Assembly (NCBI GenBank): GCA_016840695.1
Contig: JAEORV010000017.1
Coordinates: 1 to 10,990 of the forward strand
Direction: 5' to 3'
Source: Promethearchaeota archaeon
Lineage (GTDB): Archaea; Asgardarchaeota; Lokiarchaeia; Sigyniarchaeales; SOKP01
Length of the DNA stretch: 10,990 bases
Part shown: one piece after another, positions 3,235-10,990 of the stretch
How the letters are laid out: each line of letters begins with the position of its first letter
Numbering within the stretch: position 1 is the stretch's first letter
Notes under the pieces: generated by a model
The model's database searches: none
What the model was told of the DNA's origin: nothing
What the model saw: only the letters and a program-made list of their open reading frames with translations
Program-made: the position numbers and the translations under genes

Positions 3235-3744
3235 ATGCGTGAAGAAACTGATTATACAGAAGCCATTGAGGCATATAAAAACGACGATCTCGTTATCCTC
3301 GAACCTTGGGGGAGAAGCATTGATCATTTAAGGCTCACGATAATAGGAAAGAAAGGAACTCCATATCAAGAAGGTAAATTCGTTTTTGAGATAAAATTTC
3401 CCGCTAATTATCCATTTCAACCACCTTACGCTTATGCTGTTACATTAATGTGGCATCCAAATATAGACTCGAGCATCCCTCCCGGGAAATTAAACATTTG
3501 TTTGGATTTGATCAATCCTGATTTGGTAGGAAAGGTCGACGCAAGCACGGGGGCGAGCGGATGGACGCCATCGAAAACTTTAACTAATATTATAGAAGCT
3601 TTGAAAGGAATGATGCACGTGGAAGCACCTTTTTTCAATCCCGGAGATCCTTTAAACCACGAAGCTGGAGAGCAGTATTTCCGTAACGTGAAAAAGTTTA
3701 ACGATAAAGCAAAGAAATGGACGCAGAAATACGCAATGGATTAA
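3235..3744 (+). CDS. Ubiquitin-conjugating enzyme (E2)-like protein
   Basis: A 169-residue UBC-fold protein. E2 enzymes accept ubiquitin (or a ubiquitin-like modifier) from an E1 on their active-site Cys and pass it to a target, usually with an E3. Visible features are the beta-sheet with FEIKFPANYPFQPP (residues 51-64), the HPN motif (74-76), the active-site Cys89 in NICLDL, Trp110-Thr-Pro in the helix-2 lead-in, and PFFNPGDPLNHEAG (132-145). The last residues, WTQKYAMD, are nearly identical to the C-terminus of eukaryotic UBE2D. Between Cys89 and Trp110 are 20 residues, the spacing of the UBE2G/Cdc34 type and not the 7 of UBE2D. It has no tail extension or membrane anchor. The partner E1-like gene lies 1.2 kb away on the other strand. 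All catalytic features expected of an active E2 are present; the modifier it carries is not in this window. Confidence 0.93.
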   Translation: MREETDYTEAIEAYKNDDLVILEPWGRSIDHLRLTIIGKKGTPYQEGKFVFEIKFPANYPFQPPYAYAVTLMWHPNIDSSIPPGKLNICLDLINPDLVGKVDASTGASGWTPSKTLTNIIEALKGMMHVEAPFFNPGDPLNHEAGEQYFRNVKKFNDKAKKWTQKYAMD

Positions 3745-3843: not shown

Positions 3844-4461
3844 ATGGAAAAAAAGTTTCGTTTCGAAAAGAGAAAGGCAATTATCTTTGATTTAGACGGT
3901 ACTATCGTCAAATTGAACGTTAATTGGAGAGAATTAAAAAATATTTTAAGTCAAAGATTCAACGATCTGTATGGAAATCATCATGAATTCCACAGTATAA
4001 CGGAGTGCTTGATGAAAGTTTTGGAAAAAGAGGATAAGAAAGAATTTGCAAATTTACTTGATATTATTGAGCAATTCGAGCTCAAGAACATAGCAAAAGG
4101 TGCTTATCTCGAAGAAACATTATTCTTCATTAAAAACTTAGATATATTTAACGTGCAAGAAGGTACAAAACTCGCAGTTTTCTCTCTCAACATGAGAAAG
4201 ACGATCATAGAATCGTTAAAGAACGCAGATCTTTACGAAAAAATCGATTATATTGTAGGACGGGAAGATTTAAGATGTTGGAAACCGAATCCAGATGGGT
4301 TATTAAAAATTCAAGAATATTTCAATTTAAAGAGAGAGGATTTAATCTATTTTGGGGATTTACAAAAAGATCTTGATACGGGCAAGAATGCTGGTATTGA
4401 CGCCTTTTTTATAGATGAGTTAATCTGTTTGGTAAAAGAAAAAAGAAATTTAATCAAGTGA
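3844..4461 (+). CDS. HAD-superfamily hydrolase (phosphoglycolate-phosphatase-like)
   Basis: A 205-residue haloacid-dehalogenase-fold phosphatase. Motif I is FDLDGT (Asp16 nucleophile, Asp18 acid/base), motif II is Ser114 in AVFSLN, motif III is Lys147 in CWKPNPDG, and motif IV is FGDLQKDLDTGKNAG (Asp172 and Asp176 binding magnesium). A helical cap between motifs I and II (residues about 25-100) places it in subfamily I with phosphoglycolate phosphatase and beta-phosphoglucomutase. Its substrate cannot be read from the sequence, since these enzymes act on many small phosphate esters. It has no signal or membrane segment. It follows the E2-like gene by 99 bases with its own promoter-like box, and its stop codon lies nine bases from the convergent CheY stop. 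A link to the ubiquitin-like genes is not shown. Confidence 0.88.
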   Translation: MEKKFRFEKRKAIIFDLDGTIVKLNVNWRELKNILSQRFNDLYGNHHEFHSITECLMKVLEKEDKKEFANLLDIIEQFELKNIAKGAYLEETLFFIKNLDIFNVQEGTKLAVFSLNMRKTIIESLKNADLYEKIDYIVGREDLRCWKPNPDGLLKIQEYFNLKREDLIYFGDLQKDLDTGKNAGIDAFFIDELICLVKEKRNLIK

Positions 4462-4476
4462 GTATAATTCTCACTT
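4456..4476. repeat. Perfect inverted repeat spanning both convergent stop codons
   Basis: AAGTGAG, a 7-base loop (TATAATT), then CTCACTT form a perfect 7-bp inverted repeat across the 9-base gap between the HAD and CheY genes. It includes the TGA stop of each. Transcripts from either side would fold the same hairpin at their ends. Part of the symmetry follows from both proteins ending in a Lys codon AAG plus TGA. Confidence 0.5.
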
Positions 4477-4836
4477 AAGGACCTTTCCTAATACTTCAAG
4501 AACGCCTTCCTCCTTAAACGGTTTTCTTACAAAACCTTTAATTTCTTTTGGTGTCTCGTGTCCCAGTGTTTCTTCATTTATAGTTGATACAATAACGATT
4601 GAAGCTGAACTATCTATTTTTAAAATCTCTTTAATTGCATCAATTCCCCCTTTTTGAGGCATGATGATGTCCATCGTGACTAAATCAGGTTTTAGTTCTT
4701 GATAAGCCTCAACGGCTTCGTCTCCATTCGCAGCTTCTCCTATAACTTCGGCATAATCCGTTGAATTTACGATTTTCTTTAGCATTGCTCTTGAAAACGA
4801 TGAATCGTCAACAATTAAGACTTTTTTTTTCGACAT
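4471..4836 (-). CDS. cheY: Single-domain response regulator (CheY-like receiver)
   Basis: A 121-residue stand-alone receiver domain with all active-site residues: acidic pocket Asp10-Asp11, phosphoacceptor Asp56 in TMDIIMP, switch Ser84 in IVIVST, and Lys105 followed by Pro in VRKPF. In archaea and bacteria such proteins take a phosphoryl group from a histidine kinase and signal by binding a partner, for example the archaellum switch. There is no output domain and no kinase, CheA, CheC or archaellum gene in view, so a chemotaxis role is inference; cheY is used in the broad sense. It is downstream of the E1-like gene in the same direction (142-base gap) with its own TATA-like box and a palindrome near the predicted transcription start. 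No Shine-Dalgarno site is seen before the ATG at 4836. Confidence 0.92.
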   Translation of the reverse strand: MSKKKVLIVDDSSFSRAMLKKIVNSTDYAEVIGEAANGDEAVEAYQELKPDLVTMDIIMPQKGGIDAIKEILKIDSSASIVIVSTINEETLGHETPKEIKGFVRKPFKEEGVLEVLGKVLK

Positions 4837-4978: not shown

Positions 4979-6565
4979 TTACATGTAGGTTATGATCACG
5001 TTGAATTTCTTGATTTCGGATTCTTCTTTGGCTTTACCTAATGGAGTTATTGAAACGATGTCGTTACTGTTTATTTTGAGAGCTTTTAGCTTGTAGTCTG
5101 GATCTTTAAATTTTGGAGTTAAAGGATCCCACACGATTTCTTTATTTACGGGATTGGTAATAATCCAATTTTCTGGATCTAAGGGATGCTCGCTAATTTC
5201 CATGGCTTTGAAGATATAACCGACGTCCGCGTCGAAAGGAACGACGATCTGCACGTTTTCTTCGCCTTCAATTTTTCCACACGCCAGACAGTCTTCTCTT
5301 TTAACGATTGGTAACGCGTCAAATTGACCATACACGCCATTATAATTGATATAAGGAGGATCCATCGGAGGACCGATATTTCTACCTTTTACTCGAAACA
5401 ACAACTTTAAAGCTTCTTGCGATTCCACGCTTGATATGATAGAACTTACTGTTTGTATAGCTGCGATTTTGTTTCCCAAAATATTTTCCATTTCTTCAAA
5501 TTTGTAATCCGGTCCGAATGTGTTCCTAATATTATCCCTCCATTCTTGAATTTCTTCATGGGTCATCTCTGCTTTCTTTTCCTCGGAAACATTTTCGTTA
5601 AAAACCCTTTCTCTTAGTTGTTCGAGTTGATCTTGAGCAAGAATTTTTAATTGGAGGACTTCCTCGTCGTCGTTTAAATCTGGTTTATGCCCAAATTTCT
5701 TTTCGAAGTCAACTTCGGCTTTAATAACGCAGTGATTTCTATTTCGGGGTAATCCTTTTAAAGTACACGCGGCAACAAGTTTATCGTCAGCGGGTGGTAC
5801 GGGCACGATGCACCTGTAGCACGGAGTTAAATCAAGGACCTCACTTGCGTACTTTTCATCGAATTTGCTCTCAACCTTTTCTCTGATTTTTGCTTTAATG
5901 GGATTGATTATTCTTTCTCGAATCTCTTCAATTTTCTCTTCGTAGTGTTCGATCATACGTTCTCCTTCGAAATACTCTGGATATTCTTCTTCTGATAAAT
6001 ACCACAATTCTGATTCCACTATGTTATCGATCTCAATTTCTCGATTTTTATATTGAATGTTTGAACCTTCTGGGATGATAATTTGAACGTGACCTTCAAA
6101 TCCAACAGTACCACCTTCCACAATTGGTTTTTTTAAGCGAAGACATATTTTGTTTAAATCTAATCGAGCGTTAAAATTGTCTAAAGCCATGATTATCACG
6201 TCCGCCTCTTCGTATACGGATACTGGTAATTTTTGAAGTTTTTGGTTGTAAAAATCAATCTTGAGGAATGGATTCATTAATTTTAATCGTTCAGCAGCAA
6301 CCTCGGCCTTTCCACGCCCTTCGTCTCCTGGTCTAAACAACATTTGTCTTGATAAATTTGATGTTTCAATGGTATCCAAATCCACCAGGATTAATTTGCC
6401 AATACCCATCAAGGCGAAGTCCTTGGCTATCTCACAACCAAGCGCTCCAACTCCAATTATTGCAATGCACCCATTTGATACAATATCTTGGTCCCACCCA
6501 TCGACTAATTGTTGCCTGGCATACATTCGAGACTTTTTAATGTCATCTTGATTTTGCGTCATCAT
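4979..6565 (-). CDS. Ubiquitin-activating enzyme (E1)-like protein
   Basis: A 528-residue protein of the ThiF/MoeB/E1 superfamily with the layout of eukaryotic UBA2/UBA3 subunits. The ATP-binding Rossmann motif is IIGVGALG (36-43), followed by DLDTIETSNLSRQ (62-74), Lys86 in GRGKAEV and ALDN (127-130). Zinc-binding pairs are CYRC (249-252) and CLAC (426-429). The likely catalytic Cys is Cys267 in AACTLKGLPRNRNHC, which lines up with the UBA3 CTIASMPRLPEHC segment. Residues about 430-510 resemble the ubiquitin-fold domain that recruits E2. It should adenylate a ubiquitin-like C-terminus and carry it as a thioester. About 75 highly charged residues (170-246) are inserted before the first CxxC. 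Two Met codons begin the frame; GAGGT at 6574-6570 suits either, with spacing best for the second (6562). A giant coiled-coil gene ends 84 bases upstream. Confidence 0.93.
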   Translation of the reverse strand: MMTQNQDDIKKSRMYARQQLVDGWDQDIVSNGCIAIIGVGALGCEIAKDFALMGIGKLILVDLDTIETSNLSRQMLFRPGDEGRGKAEVAAERLKLMNPFLKIDFYNQKLQKLPVSVYEEADVIIMALDNFNARLDLNKICLRLKKPIVEGGTVGFEGHVQIIIPEGSNIQYKNREIEIDNIVESELWYLSEEEYPEYFEGERMIEHYEEKIEEIRERIINPIKAKIREKVESKFDEKYASEVLDLTPCYRCIVPVPPADDKLVAACTLKGLPRNRNHCVIKAEVDFEKKFGHKPDLNDDEEVLQLKILAQDQLEQLRERVFNENVSEEKKAEMTHEEIQEWRDNIRNTFGPDYKFEEMENILGNKIAAIQTVSSIISSVESQEALKLLFRVKGRNIGPPMDPPYINYNGVYGQFDALPIVKREDCLACGKIEGEENVQIVVPFDADVGYIFKAMEISEHPLDPENWIITNPVNKEIVWDPLTPKFKDPDYKLKALKINSNDIVSITPLGKAKEESEIKKFNVIITYM

Positions 6566-6649: not shown

Positions 6650-9600
6650 TCATTTTTTACTTTTTTTTGCCGCTTCTTTAATCATTCGCGCTAAATCATC
6701 TATCTCTTCTTGATCTTTTGCTCTTTCAGCTTCTTCAGCATTTAGTTTTTCTATTTCTTGAGAATCTAACGTTACCGCTAACAAATCTTGCTTTAATCGT
6801 AGTAGGTTACTCATGCTTTTACCAAATTCTTTAGCTTCGCGTTCAATTCTCTCTTTTTCCTGTTCTTCAGCTAATAAATTTTGCTTCTTTCTTTCATCTA
6901 TCATCTCTGAAATATTTTGAGAGATATTTGTAATCTCTCCAACAGCTTGCTTCTTTTTTTGTGTTTCTTCCATTAATTGCTGCTTTTTCAATTCTCTCTG
7001 TTTTTTTAGTTCTTGTTCGATTTCTTGTATGCGAAATTCTTCAACTATTTCTTTTTCTTCGAGAGTTTTAGTATTCTTGATTTCGGTCTGGATGTATTGA
7101 ATTTCTTCATTCCACCCTATAGTTTTAAATTTTTCAATGGCTTGTTCGAAAAAATTATAAGCTTTTTCAAAGTCATGATGTGCTCTCCACTTTTTTCCTT
7201 GGTCAATTAAAGCTAATCCTTCATTTTTAAGCTGTTCGTTAACTTTCCTTTGTTCTATTAGTCCTTGATATTGCTTTTGTTGTTCTTCTTTCTGTTCTTC
7301 GAACCTTTCGTGTCTTTTACGAATTTCCTTTTGGAACTCTTCGTATTCTTGCTGTCTTTGTAAGCGGGCGATTTCCTCTAATTTTTTCTTCTCAATTTGA
7401 TCTACTTTTTCTTGCTGTAATTCATTTATCAAATCAGTTAAATTATTAATTTCTGGCTCCCATCCTACATTTTCAGCTAAGATTTTCCGTGCTTGAACAT
7501 ATAATGAGATAGCATTATCATAATCTGGAATTAGCCTTTTTAAATATTTTCCTGCCTCATCTAAAAGAGAATACGCTGCATCCCTTTGGCTCGCTTGTTG
7601 TTCTATTAATTGTTCTCGCTCAGCAATCGCTAATCGCCGTGCCGCTTTTTCTTCCCTCTCCTGTTTCTGTCTCTCGTCTAAGATTGCTTGTACTTCCTTT
7701 TCTTCAGCAATCTTGTGCAATTCTTTTTGTAATTCGTATTCCTCTTGGAGGTCTTTTTGTTTTTTCAAGTTGGTAACTTTGATTATCATACCTTTGATAG
7801 AATCTGTGGGAAATTGTAGTTCTTGTAATAATAATTCTGCCTTCCTATAGCGTTTCAATGCCAGATCGTATTCAAAAGTTTTTATAAGGTTTTCAGCTTC
7901 GTCCAAAATAGAAAACGCAGTCGCTTTTTTCTTTTCTAAAGAAGCTTTCAATTGTTCCATTTCTTCTACTTGAATTTGTTTAAGTTTTAACCTTTCTTTC
8001 TCTCTTTTGACATTTTCAGCTATTTGTAATTGGTACTCCCTTTCATCTCTTTCATTATTGATACGTGCTTGCAGTTCTTTTTCTTTTACTATTTGTTGGT
8101 CATATTTCATTTTTTGAACTTTCTTAATCATTTCGTTGATGGTTTCAGTTGGGAATTGGATTTCACTTAAAATCAGCATTGCGCTTTGATAATACTCAAT
8201 TCCCTTGTCATAAAAAGATTTTTTTACGAAAATTTCAGCTTCTTCTAAAATTTTGAAGGCATTTTCTTTTCGCCTTTCCATGTAAGCCATTAAATCTTCT
8301 CTTTTCTTAAGCTCTTTCTGCTGAGCTCTCATCTTTTGCTTTTCTATTTCCATTTTTTTTGTTATTTCTTGTTGGAATAGAGCTTCTTCATGTTTTTCTT
8401 TTAAGGTCCTTTCAAATTCTTCTTGTTTTCGTAACTCTTCGTTTTTCTTCTTTACTTGAACTTTCTGAATCATTTCTCTGATTGGCTCTAATGGGAATTG
8501 AATTTCACTTAGAATTAATTCGGCGCGACGGTATGTTTCTATGGATTTTTCATATTCCCCGTGGTTTAAGAAGGATTCGGCCTCATCCATTAATTTAAAT
8601 GCTAAAGACTTGCGTTCTTCCATTCGTGCTTGTAAAACTTCCTTCTTCTGCAATTCAATTTTTTTAGCCTTTACCTTTTCTTGTTCTTTTAACATTTGCT
8701 CTGAAATTTTTAATTGAAAGAGAACTTCCTCTTCGTTTCTTTTCTTGTTTAAATCCTGATCTTTGTGCTTTTCTTGTTCATATTCCTGCTTTTTAATTTG
8801 AATAGTCTCTAAAGTTTCTTCTAATAATTTTAGATAACCACCCGACCATCCTGATTGAGTTAAGATTGATATGGCTTGCTCGTAATTCTCAATAGCTCCA
8901 TTAAAATCTATATTTTTGAGTAAAAGATCTCCTTGGTCAATGAGTTTAAGTGCTTCTTCTTGTTTCTTTAAGTCTTGAGCGGCAAATTCTTTCTTTTTGG
9001 CCAATAAAGCCTTATCTGTCTCCAATCTTGCGTTTTCGATCTCTCGCTGATGTTTTAATTGTTCAATAAATGCGCGATGAGCAGCTTCTTGTTGCATTTC
9101 TTTTTCCAACAATTTTTGGTGCCAGTTTTCTTTTTCTATTTTCTTATCTTCTATAGCATTAATAGCTTCTTGAATCAAGGGAATTTCTTCTACCCACTGA
9201 ATTTGAGCGAATGCATTTGCTACATTACGATATATTTCAAGGGCTCCATCAAGTTTCCCTTGGGAAAGAAATTCTTGTGCTTTATCCAATAATTTGAATG
9301 CTTCTTCTTTTCTTTTCTCGCGATACTCAATTTCTTTATCACGTTCCCGATAGACTATTTCTCTTTTTCTTAATTTATCCCTATGAGCTTTCATTTCGTT
9401 TGCTAGTTGTGCTTGGAACTCTCTTTCTTGACGATCTCTTTCTAAAGTTGCTTCCATACTTTTTTGTGCTTGTAACATGTCTGCTTGTTTTCTTCTTTCC
9501 AATTCGATAATAGAGCTTTGAATCAAGTTAATTTCATCGTGCCAATGAATTTCAGCGAAAATATTTAAAGTTTTTCGATAAATTTCAATTGCTTCATCAA

Positions 9601-10990
9601 AATTTCCTTCTTTAATATGAACTTCTGCTTCTTCAAACAATTTAAATGCATCATGTTTTCTCTTCTCTTGATATTCTAATTCCTTTTCTCTTTCACGTAG
9701 TTTAACATCTCTAGCTTTAATTTTATCCCGTTCGATTTGTAATTGTTTTGTAATTTGTTTCTGGAATTCTTTCTCCTGCCTATTTCTTTCGATTTCTTTT
9801 TGAATTTGCTTTTGTTTTAGTTCCTTTTGCTCCAGTATCTTTCTTTCTAATTCTTTAATCGAATTCTCAATTAATGGAAGTTCATCAGACCACTGAATCT
9901 CGGCAAAAATTGTCCCTGCATTTTGATAAGAGTAAATGGCTTTTTCCAATTCACCTTGTTTTAGGCTTTCTTGAGCTACATCTAGAAATTCAAAAGCTTT
10001 TACCTTTCTCTGCTCACGATACTGCACCTCGTCTTTTCTTGCTTCGAAAGCAATCTCTTTCTTTTTCAATCTTTCACGTTCTTTTTCTAATTGTGTGGTA
10101 ATTTGTTCTTGAAATTCGATTTCTTGCTTCCTTTTCTTTAATATTTTTTCTTCTTCCGCTTTTTTTCTTTCTTTTTTAGATTTATTCAACTCTTGAATAT
10201 TCGAAATTGTAGTTTTTAATACTTCTATTTGGGAACTCCATCCAGGACCAATATCAGTAATCATTATTAAAGCATTCTGATATTCTTTAATAGCCGCATC
10301 ATAATCCTCTTCTTTTAATAAGAGGTTATCTGCTTTATCTAATAAGGCAAAAAATTCTTTCTCCTTCTTCTCTTCTTTATTTCTTTTTTCCAAAAAGACC
10401 TGCCTTTTTTGAGCAATTTCTTGTGCAGATTCTTCAAATTGTGCTTTTTGTTTTATATATATCGTTTCTTGAAGTTTTTCTAATTCCTCTTGTCTTTTTT
10501 CCCTAATTTTAATAGCTTGTTCTTCTCTTGCTAGTTTTTCTTTTATATTATTTTTAAAATTGATAATTGGTTGCACATGCGAGTCCCATTCAATAGATCT
10601 TAAGAGTTCAATTGCTTCATCAAATTTAATAATAGCCTCATCGAATTTTCTTTCTCTCTCTAATTTCTTTCCAAGGTCTATGATATTAAATGCCTTTGTT
10701 TGAATTTCTTCTTCTCTTTTCTTCTTCTCTTCAAATTCAATTAATTTAACTCCTCCAATTTCAGTATTGGCACTTGAAATGGAAGGTCTTACAATAATTA
10801 GTTCTTCTACTGGCGTTTCCTTTTCTACTTTATATTTTTCAAACTCTTCCTTTCTTCTCTTAAGATTTGCTAATATAACTTGAATATTCTTAGTTTGCTC
10901 CGTCCAACCTATAGAATTTAATAACTTGATGGATTCTTGGTATTTTTTAATCGCATCGTTAAAATTATTCGTTTTCTCAAGGTTCTTAGC
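6650..10990 (-). CDS. Giant coiled-coil protein with tandem TPR/MIT-like helical modules (partial, start outside window)
   Basis: The frame is open from the right edge to TGA at 6652-6650, giving at least 1446 residues. A GTG at 10576-10574 is internal, because the same repeat pattern continues to 10990 without a stop. The protein alternates a three-helix module of about 55 residues (pattern A-LLD-A---L--G-FD-AI--Y--A---I--I-W--E) with a charged helix of about 60 residues rich in Glu, Lys, Arg and Gln. Eleven complete modules and one partial are visible, followed by a charged helical tail (6650 to about 7070). There is no signal peptide, membrane segment, catalytic motif or cysteine-rich zinc site in the visible part. 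The module resembles TPR hairpins, or the three-helix MIT domain of ESCRT partners; I cannot choose by eye. It is likely an elongated scaffold or cytoskeleton-like protein, function unknown. It is upstream of the E1-like gene on the same strand. Confidence 0.9.
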   Translation of the reverse strand, partial: AKNLEKTNNFNDAIKKYQESIKLLNSIGWTEQTKNIQVILANLKRRKEEFEKYKVEKETPVEELIIVRPSISSANTEIGGVKLIEFEEKKKREEEIQTKAFNIIDLGKKLERERKFDEAIIKFDEAIELLRSIEWDSHVQPIINFKNNIKEKLAREEQAIKIREKRQEELEKLQETIYIKQKAQFEESAQEIAQKRQVFLEKRNKEEKKEKEFFALLDKADNLLLKEEDYDAAIKEYQNALIMITDIGPGWSSQIEVLKTTISNIQELNKSKKERKKAEEEKILKKRKQEIEFQEQITTQLEKERERLKKKEIAFEARKDEVQYREQRKVKAFEFLDVAQESLKQGELEKAIYSYQNAGTIFAEIQWSDELPLIENSIKELERKILEQKELKQKQIQKEIERNRQEKEFQKQITKQLQIERDKIKARDVKLREREKELEYQEKRKHDAFKLFEEAEVHIKEGNFDEAIEIYRKTLNIFAEIHWHDEINLIQSSIIELERRKQADMLQAQKSMEATLERDRQEREFQAQLANEMKAHRDKLRKREIVYRERDKEIEYREKRKEEAFKLLDKAQEFLSQGKLDGALEIYRNVANAFAQIQWVEEIPLIQEAINAIEDKKIEKENWHQKLLEKEMQQEAAHRAFIEQLKHQREIENARLETDKALLAKKKEFAAQDLKKQEEALKLIDQGDLLLKNIDFNGAIENYEQAISILTQSGWSGGYLKLLEETLETIQIKKQEYEQEKHKDQDLNKKRNEEEVLFQLKISEQMLKEQEKVKAKKIELQKKEVLQARMEERKSLAFKLMDEAESFLNHGEYEKSIETYRRAELILSEIQFPLEPIREMIQKVQVKKKNEELRKQEEFERTLKEKHEEALFQQEITKKMEIEKQKMRAQQKELKKREDLMAYMERRKENAFKILEEAEIFVKKSFYDKGIEYYQSAMLILSEIQFPTETINEMIKKVQKMKYDQQIVKEKELQARINNERDEREYQLQIAENVKREKERLKLKQIQVEEMEQLKASLEKKKATAFSILDEAENLIKTFEYDLALKRYRKAELLLQELQFPTDSIKGMIIKVTNLKKQKDLQEEYELQKELHKIAEEKEVQAILDERQKQEREEKAARRLAIAEREQLIEQQASQRDAAYSLLDEAGKYLKRLIPDYDNAISLYVQARKILAENVGWEPEINNLTDLINELQQEKVDQIEKKKLEEIARLQRQQEYEEFQKEIRKRHERFEEQKEEQQKQYQGLIEQRKVNEQLKNEGLALIDQGKKWRAHHDFEKAYNFFEQAIEKFKTIGWNEEIQYIQTEIKNTKTLEEKEIVEEFRIQEIEQELKKQRELKKQQLMEETQKKKQAVGEITNISQNISEMIDERKKQNLLAEEQEKERIEREAKEFGKSMSNLLRLKQDLLAVTLDSQEIEKLNAEEAERAKDQEEIDDLARMIKEAAKKSKK
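7067..10990 (-). repeat. Tandem protein repeat array, about 348-bp period
   Basis: The conserved aromatic at the end of helix 2 of each module marks the period. Trp codons begin (low coordinate) at 10904, 10586, 10238, 9890, 9542, 9194 and 8846. Phe codons follow at 8495, 8153 and 7811, and Trp again at 7460 and 7112. The spacings in residues are 106, 116, 116, 116, 116, 116, 117, 114, 114, 117 and 116. The modules at 8495, 8153 and 7811 share Phe-Pro in place of Trp and are closest to each other. The repeats are clear in protein but diverged in DNA. Confidence 0.9.

Follow-up and report, generated by a model that had tools for sequence, protein, structure and literature searches.

The contig JAEORV010000017.1 (assembly GCA_016840695.1), from a Promethearchaeota archaeon of the Lokiarchaeia, was analyzed over its complete length of 10,990 nt, referred to here as the window. 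It encodes on its minus strand a giant protein composed of repeated units, each consisting of a three-helix module of MIT/TPR type and a charged helical linker. The repeat is regular, the linkers from number 5 onward are held at 63 amino acids (aa) along the chain and between species, and the gene is paired with one for an E1-like enzyme (E1b). The interpretation we favor, with a probability of roughly 0.4, is that the protein may serve a second E1/E2 pathway as a rigid scaffold with many MIT-type modules, to which the tails of ESCRT-III proteins might dock.

The repeat array and its linkers

The array gene is an open frame of 1446 aa running from 10990 to 6650 without a start codon; its N-terminus is cut by the contig end at 10990, with about 205 residues lying beyond. 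The whole frame is matched, at a reported identity of 100% (one residue differs by eye), by P0001, a database protein of 1651 aa. This full-length relative has 14 modules; recovering the full gene and counting its modules had been suggested by an earlier, model-made reading of the window (the original prediction). Judging by P0001, the window lacks the first two modules, spaced 76 residues apart, and the beginning of the third. Modules were located with a hidden Markov model of 53 columns built from the family:

6650..10990, minus strand: giant array gene, 1446 aa (open frame; contig equals window; 1651-aa relative)
10862..10990, minus strand: module 3, cut by the contig end
10703..10861, minus strand: linker 3, 53 aa, Pro/Gly by composition; 44–58 aa across species in full arrays
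10544..10702, minus strand: module 4
10364..10543, minus strand: linker 4, 60 aa, helical composition, no Pro
10196..10363, minus strand: module 5, 56 aa
10007..10195, minus strand: linker 5, 63 aa
9848..10006, minus strand: module 6, 53 aa
9659..9847, minus strand: linker 6, 63 aa
9500..9658, minus strand: module 7, 53 aa (also AlphaFold2 helices)
9311..9499, minus strand: linker 7, 63 aa, within a modeled 94-residue helix (also AlphaFold2)
9152..9310, minus strand: module 8, 53 aa (also AlphaFold2)
8963..9151, minus strand: linker 8, 63 aa, model break at 8984–9016 (also AlphaFold2)
8801..8962, minus strand: module 9, 54 aa (also AlphaFold2)
8612..8800, minus strand: linker 9, 63 aa, within a modeled 92-residue helix (also AlphaFold2)
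8459..8611, minus strand: module 10, 51 aa, Phe type (also AlphaFold2)
8270..8458, minus strand: linker 10, 63 aa
8117..8269, minus strand: module 11, 51 aa, Phe type
7928..8116, minus strand: linker 11, 63 aa
7775..7927, minus strand: module 12, 51 aa, Phe type
7586..7774, minus strand: linker 12, 63 aa
7418..7585, minus strand: module 13, 56 aa
7229..7417, minus strand: linker 13, 63 aa
7070..7228, minus strand: module 14, 53 aa
6650..7069, minus strand: C-terminal tail, 139 aa and stop, with a conserved amphipathic Lys-rich motif at the end

Self-comparison of the protein with BLOSUM62 gave a top lag of 116 residues (+0.285; mean -0.48 and standard deviation 0.10 over lags 5–399), followed by 232 and 114. 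Tandem Repeats Finder reported no array of such a period in the DNA, so the repeat units have diverged. The periodicity is genuine, and stricter than the original prediction described. All twelve of its Trp/Phe marker positions are present, from window residue 29 to 1293, a span of 1264 residues rather than the more than 1400 claimed, and the 11 spacings are, in order, 106, 116, 116, 116, 116, 116, 117, 114, 114, 117 and 116. Six thus have the value of 116 proposed for most, and one (106) lies outside the 114–117 proposed for the remainder. The repeat was placed at 7067..10990, but the array gene continues as far as the stop codon at 6650 and, at its N-terminus, beyond the contig.

The residue period varies because the modules vary (51–56 aa, mostly through loop changes) and the linkers do not. 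Linker lengths were counted among the best 120 of 232 database matches, in 38, 59 and 17 proteins with 14, 18 and 20 modules, or 114 proteins; three of the 38 begin mid-array, and six proteins with other module numbers were excluded. From linker 5 onward, 1345 of 1364 linkers in these orthologs are 63 aa long. The remaining 19 read as 60 aa, and 18 of these pair with a module read as 54, leaving the total unchanged, so that they are boundary effects and one protein truly deviates. Linker 4 is 60 aa in 110 of the 114 proteins. Linkers 2 and 3, which contain Gly/Pro and range from 44 to 64 aa, serve as an internal control: across 34 proteins, Pro is absent from linkers 4–7 and 9–13, amounts to 0.09% in linker 8 and reaches 2.7–3.5% in the variable linkers 2 and 3. 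The stretch from module 5 to module 14 (1098 aa) is gap-free in six of six 14-module orthologs at 53% identity, whereas an alignment of ten neighboring E1 proteins, 71% identical, is interrupted by five internal gap runs. The two sets are not matched in size or genomes, and an eleventh, truncated E1 was left out. Judging from these alignments, the constancy of the linkers is a genuine length constraint, and in this respect the original prediction is supported.

Equal length could otherwise be an unconstrained relic of recent duplication. Block duplications of whole modules have indeed changed the module number (in the 18-, 20- and 25-module versions), and some repeats of one paralog (L122) have identical linkers, but linkers are still 63 aa at 24% identity within a protein (51% across orthologs; 34 proteins) and at 17% in a paralog, and the Gly/Pro linkers of the same proteins drift. 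For the window's family this explanation is already contradicted, and we regard it as extremely improbable.

Relatives with variable linkers, one of the two findings that the original prediction named as refuting it, were encountered to a limited extent: linkers 2 and 3 vary, as do a pair of fragmentary orthologs, and many of the distant paralogs depart from the pattern. In a comparison of 21 sequences, two that run into a contig end deviate: a single step of 106 residues occurs among the later modules of G019, and the steps of G006 are 79, 107, 106, 106 and 106; the 4-module version (G008) has steps of 76, 121 and 110. Six consecutive 63-aa linkers at 17% identity are found in L125, a paralog of another family, while other paralogs (L114, L122, L116) have linkers of 67, 74 or 75–76 aa, or an alternation with about 23, and several paralogs and distant homologs are irregular (e.g., L115, L117, L120, L127). 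The paralog L122:3383-10684, in a 4.36-Mb genome, has seven consecutive 127-residue steps; some of its 74-aa copies are identical, so this expansion is possibly recent.

Module number, by contrast with linker length, is free. Orthologs carry 4, 9, 10, 14, 18, 20 or 25 modules, and single database proteins show other numbers. This argues against the fixed-length ruler that had been proposed, and for a rack in which pitch, not length, matters. The unit profile was searched against 119 genomes sampled across the phylum; the 27 that matched (E 1e-6) all belong to the window's order, and at least 20 of the 92 without a match lie outside it. The family has been found in one order of Lokiarchaeia.

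Module fold and helical spacers

The original prediction knew of no named family with this layout, which is partly wrong: the modules match MIT and TPR profiles, and what appears to be new is the array architecture. Compared with the whole protein, Pfam MIT (PF04212) scores 69.4 bits (E = 2.8e-19, cut-off 30) and TPR_2 56.5 bits (cut-off 27), with TPR_11, TPR_12 and TPR_1 likewise above their cut-offs; the 10 Pfam matches with E no higher than 1 include no spectrin family. The profile search with one module, suggested as a check, gave a mixed result: the window's single modules are split between TPR and MIT matches, all below cut-off, while modules taken singly from two relatives do pass the MIT threshold (37 and 30.2 bits). 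Foldseek matches align the modules with the MIT domain of archaeal Vps4 (64/75 residues, 1.9 Å, 27–28% identity) and with those of yeast Vps4 and NRBF2. Structural alignment fits both MIT and TPR, so the fold by itself does not discriminate between them. The modules are called MIT-type here because a third helix is present and the 34-residue tandem of TPR proteins is absent, modules recurring every 106–119 residues (76 in the first pair). Near two ubiquitin loci (see below), the module model matched one TPR array, of contrasting layout, and one protein with TPR-like repeats by eye. Identity is 27% among the modules of one protein and 61% per module between species (34 proteins); with each module individually conserved, they are probably not interchangeable.

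Covariation was analyzed over 1776 unique module-linker-module units (effective number 505). Helix 2 pairs antiparallel with helix 1 and also with helix 3. Of the top 50 couplings at a separation of at least 6, 42 are internal to modules and the linker contributes none; it accounts for 2 of the top 85 and 16 of the top 169. Linker-internal coupling peaks at i+3 and i+4, opposite charges are in excess at the same spacings (400 sampled linkers), and alongside this charge pattern the hydrophobics ILVMFYW make up 22–26% of linkers 5–13. Single alpha-helices of the ER/K type are long charged helices with i/i+3 and i/i+4 salt bridges and few hydrophobics. A helical hairpin inside the linker was rejected, there being no antiparallel covariation pattern.

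Window residues 425–880, with four modules, were modeled with AlphaFold2 from 29 sequences (mean predicted local distance difference test score, pLDDT, 83.5; predicted template modeling score, pTM, 0.29). Helices of 94 and 92 residues (model residues 60–153 and 294–385) span linkers 7 and 9, and linker 8, the third of the three modeled linkers, is broken at 8984–9016, where pLDDT is below 50. The proposed structure prediction of consecutive modules has therefore given a continuous helix over two linkers of three and a low-confidence break in the other, and with so low a pTM the relative placement of parts is not trustworthy. Together, the model and the covariation support the predicted module fold and the joining of modules by continuous helices of 92–94 residues.

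Linkers might also be equal in length if they paired with non-equivalent linkers of another chain, staggered or antiparallel, so that a filament was locked in register. In-register homodimers, it can be reasoned, would not require diverged linkers of one chain to be equally long, and the linkers do have conserved hydrophobic columns (28, 32, 43, 48 and 50). However, neither heptad nor other periodicity rises above shuffles in the linkers, and we consider such a filament decidedly improbable. A heptad coiled coil was rejected on the same grounds, even though 63 equals nine heptads.

The second E1 locus

Directly downstream of the giant gene, on the same strand and about 85 bases away, is the gene for E1b. 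The encoded protein is a predicted E1 of ubiquitin type: it has the ThiF match listed below, and in the catalytic-Cys region its AACT motif and CxxC pairs align with those of the E1 beside a ubiquitin-family gene. The locus includes:

4979..6565, minus strand: E1b, predicted second E1-like enzyme, 528 aa (ThiF PF00899, E = 1.8e-54; locus position; comparison with other E1)
3844..4461, plus strand: HAD-family hydrolase, a frequent E1b-locus neighbor (Pfam; locus comparison)
3235..3744, plus strand: E2-like enzyme, 169 aa (UQ_con PF00179, E = 1.6e-26; 38.6–38.7% identity to the E2 of two ubiquitin loci)

A contig search using the giant itself gave no match, and loci were gathered by E1 alignment instead. 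Of 64 E1 loci, 53 are at least 60% identical (within L042–L099) and 46 of them have at least 2 kb upstream. The giant lies upstream of E1b on the same strand in 45 of these 46 testable loci (the exception is L094), separated by up to 300 bases in 26, by 301–800 in 2 and by more in 17. Set apart from this count were L084, L085, L086, L089 and L091 (below 60% identity) and L101–L105 (Helarchaeota or other), none of which has a giant upstream of E1 in the DNA examined, and L100, where a 7-module relative is near E1 on the opposite strand. Across 37 genomes of the family, giant and E1b agree in presence or absence in 32 (25 have both and 7 neither), while 4 have E1b only and 1 the giant only (Fisher p = 0.0002), with presence called at E < 1e-60 for the giant, plus the short or cut copies in G006 and G008, and E < 1e-100 for E1b. 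The corresponding numbers for the 24 genomes at least 90% complete are 20, 2, 2 and 0 (p = 0.02).

At the two ubiquitin loci that were read (L169, L170), the ubiquitin-family gene adjoins a different E1 (410 or 427 aa) and its own E2, and coordinates show the same pairing with the other E1 in further genomes. Since the ubiquitin-family gene stands beside another E1, the window's locus is a second E1/E2 set, and the label of ubiquitin operon or locus was dropped in favor of second E1 locus. Many genomes have two E1s, one of about 400–437 aa, which in the loci read adjoins a ubiquitin-family gene and an E2, and one of 528 aa by the giant; the latter carries an insertion of about 60 residues. The E1b frame contains two stop codons in each of two assemblies (G005:C52 and G013:C108), where either the gene is broken or the assembly is in error. 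In several genomes the giant and E1 are separated by a subtilase (Peptidase_S8) gene (L027, L030, L031, L032 and L038), and such a gene was also noted at L100.

The stable pairing with E1b bears on whether the protein is simply a passive structural rod, that is, a spectrin-like spacer or fiber with modules as mere joints and an incidental E1 neighbor. Constant helical spacers and a module number that varies by blocks would suit such a rod, as would paralogs that carry the array only, save for one doubtful Pfam match. For a plain spacer, however, there would be no need for modules that differ from each other to be individually conserved between species, nor for a constant partner gene, and we find this account doubtful.

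A possible docking scaffold

In the scaffold that we favor, the chain of each module would go forward in helix 1, turn back in helix 2 and go forward once more in helix 3, and helix 3 would pass through the linker into the next helix 1 as one helix of about 92–94 residues, so that the chain would advance in one direction. As length variation lies mostly in off-axis module loops, axial module spacing would be near constant, with a pitch of about 11–12 nm estimated from helix lengths. The protein would be a long, mostly rigid alpha-helical rod bearing a row of MIT-type three-helix modules, which would dock helical motifs of partners, the first candidates being the C-terminal tails of ESCRT-III, and thereby deliver them to conjugation by E1b/E2b. 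The evenly placed docking sites of the original prediction gain partial support from the MIT/TPR type of the modules. In eukaryotes, MIT domains link enzymes to ESCRT-III polymers. All 39 genomes searched encode ESCRT-III, and PMC7240154 describes Asgard Vps4 MIT domains that bind MIM motifs of ESCRT-III; from these two points we infer a docking scaffold. The repeat architecture, the length constraint and the gene pairing behind it are observed, whereas the rod form in solution, the docking, the identity of the partners and the scaffold role are conjectural.

The co-occurrence of giant and E1b is weakened as evidence by their adjacency and by incomplete assemblies, and repeats of TPR proteins align with the modules as well as MIT domains do, the CHIP TPR domain over 64 residues at 1.8–2.0 Å. 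Alternatively, the protein may be an adaptor of TPR-like type that brings substrates to the second E1/E2 pathway, acting in the manner of an E3 scaffold and independent of ESCRT. The helix 1–2 hairpin matches TPR models and consensus TPR proteins, and E1b and E2 are neighbors, but each 106–119-residue unit has a single hairpin with no 34-residue tandem, and covariation sets helix 3 along helix 2 in the style of a closed bundle. We consider such an adaptor unlikely. The C-terminal tail, despite its conserved amphipathic motif, was rejected as a MIM1: the pattern used occurs in 0 of 120 tails, and the position of the signature Arg of the MIM consensus is Met in most of the tails inspected.

Extended further, the MIT-type scaffold would place a second ubiquitin-like conjugation pathway of Lokiarchaeia on a rod of more than 100 nm along ESCRT-III polymers or membranes, with docking sites at constant axial pitch. 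This larger picture is rather unlikely to hold in full, and we know of no eukaryotic counterpart to such a molecular rack. If true, a rod with up to 25 evenly spaced MIT-type modules, paired with a second E1/E2, would be a new type of organizer where the ubiquitin and ESCRT systems meet, in the archaeal lineage nearest to eukaryotes; the idea is testable with recombinant fragments.

Among known systems, MIT domains (PF04212; Vps4, VPS4A, katanin, MITD1; tandem in LIP5, CAPN7 and ULK3) resemble the array in their three-helix module of about 65 aa and in the Pfam and structural matches. An excerpt of PMC9477494 names MIT domains as single and tandem (two), unlike the 4–25 modules on fixed-length helical spacers found here. 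TPR proteins share the helix 1–2 hairpin and the whole-protein matches, but the unit of the array is one hairpin plus a third helix. Spectrin-type rods have tandem three-helix units, continuous joining helices and a near-constant period; their repeats of about 106 aa are bundled throughout, whereas the array has a module of about 64 aa and a lone helix of about 52 aa, as estimated from covariation. Asgard ubiquitin-ESCRT gene sets likewise have E1, E2 and MIT/ESCRT parts in one lineage, but the window's locus has its second E1/E2 without a ubiquitin gene beside it. Among the papers listed by searches of the open-access PMC literature, none describes such an array, judged by titles or the starts of abstracts.

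Other genes were seen at or near these loci. Upstream of the giant in many relatives are genes for a RACo-like iron-sulfur activator, a Ras-family GTPase and an aspartokinase-like amino-acid kinase (L041:2753-7010). A ubiquitin-fold match lies within a 4221-residue open frame at G023:C1:47401-47580. In the window, a 184-aa protein (635–1189), with only a sub-cut-off HEC/Ndc80 match, recurs near the locus in relatives, and a CheY-like response regulator (4471–4836) near E1 is also present in 2 of 20 relatives' loci compared.
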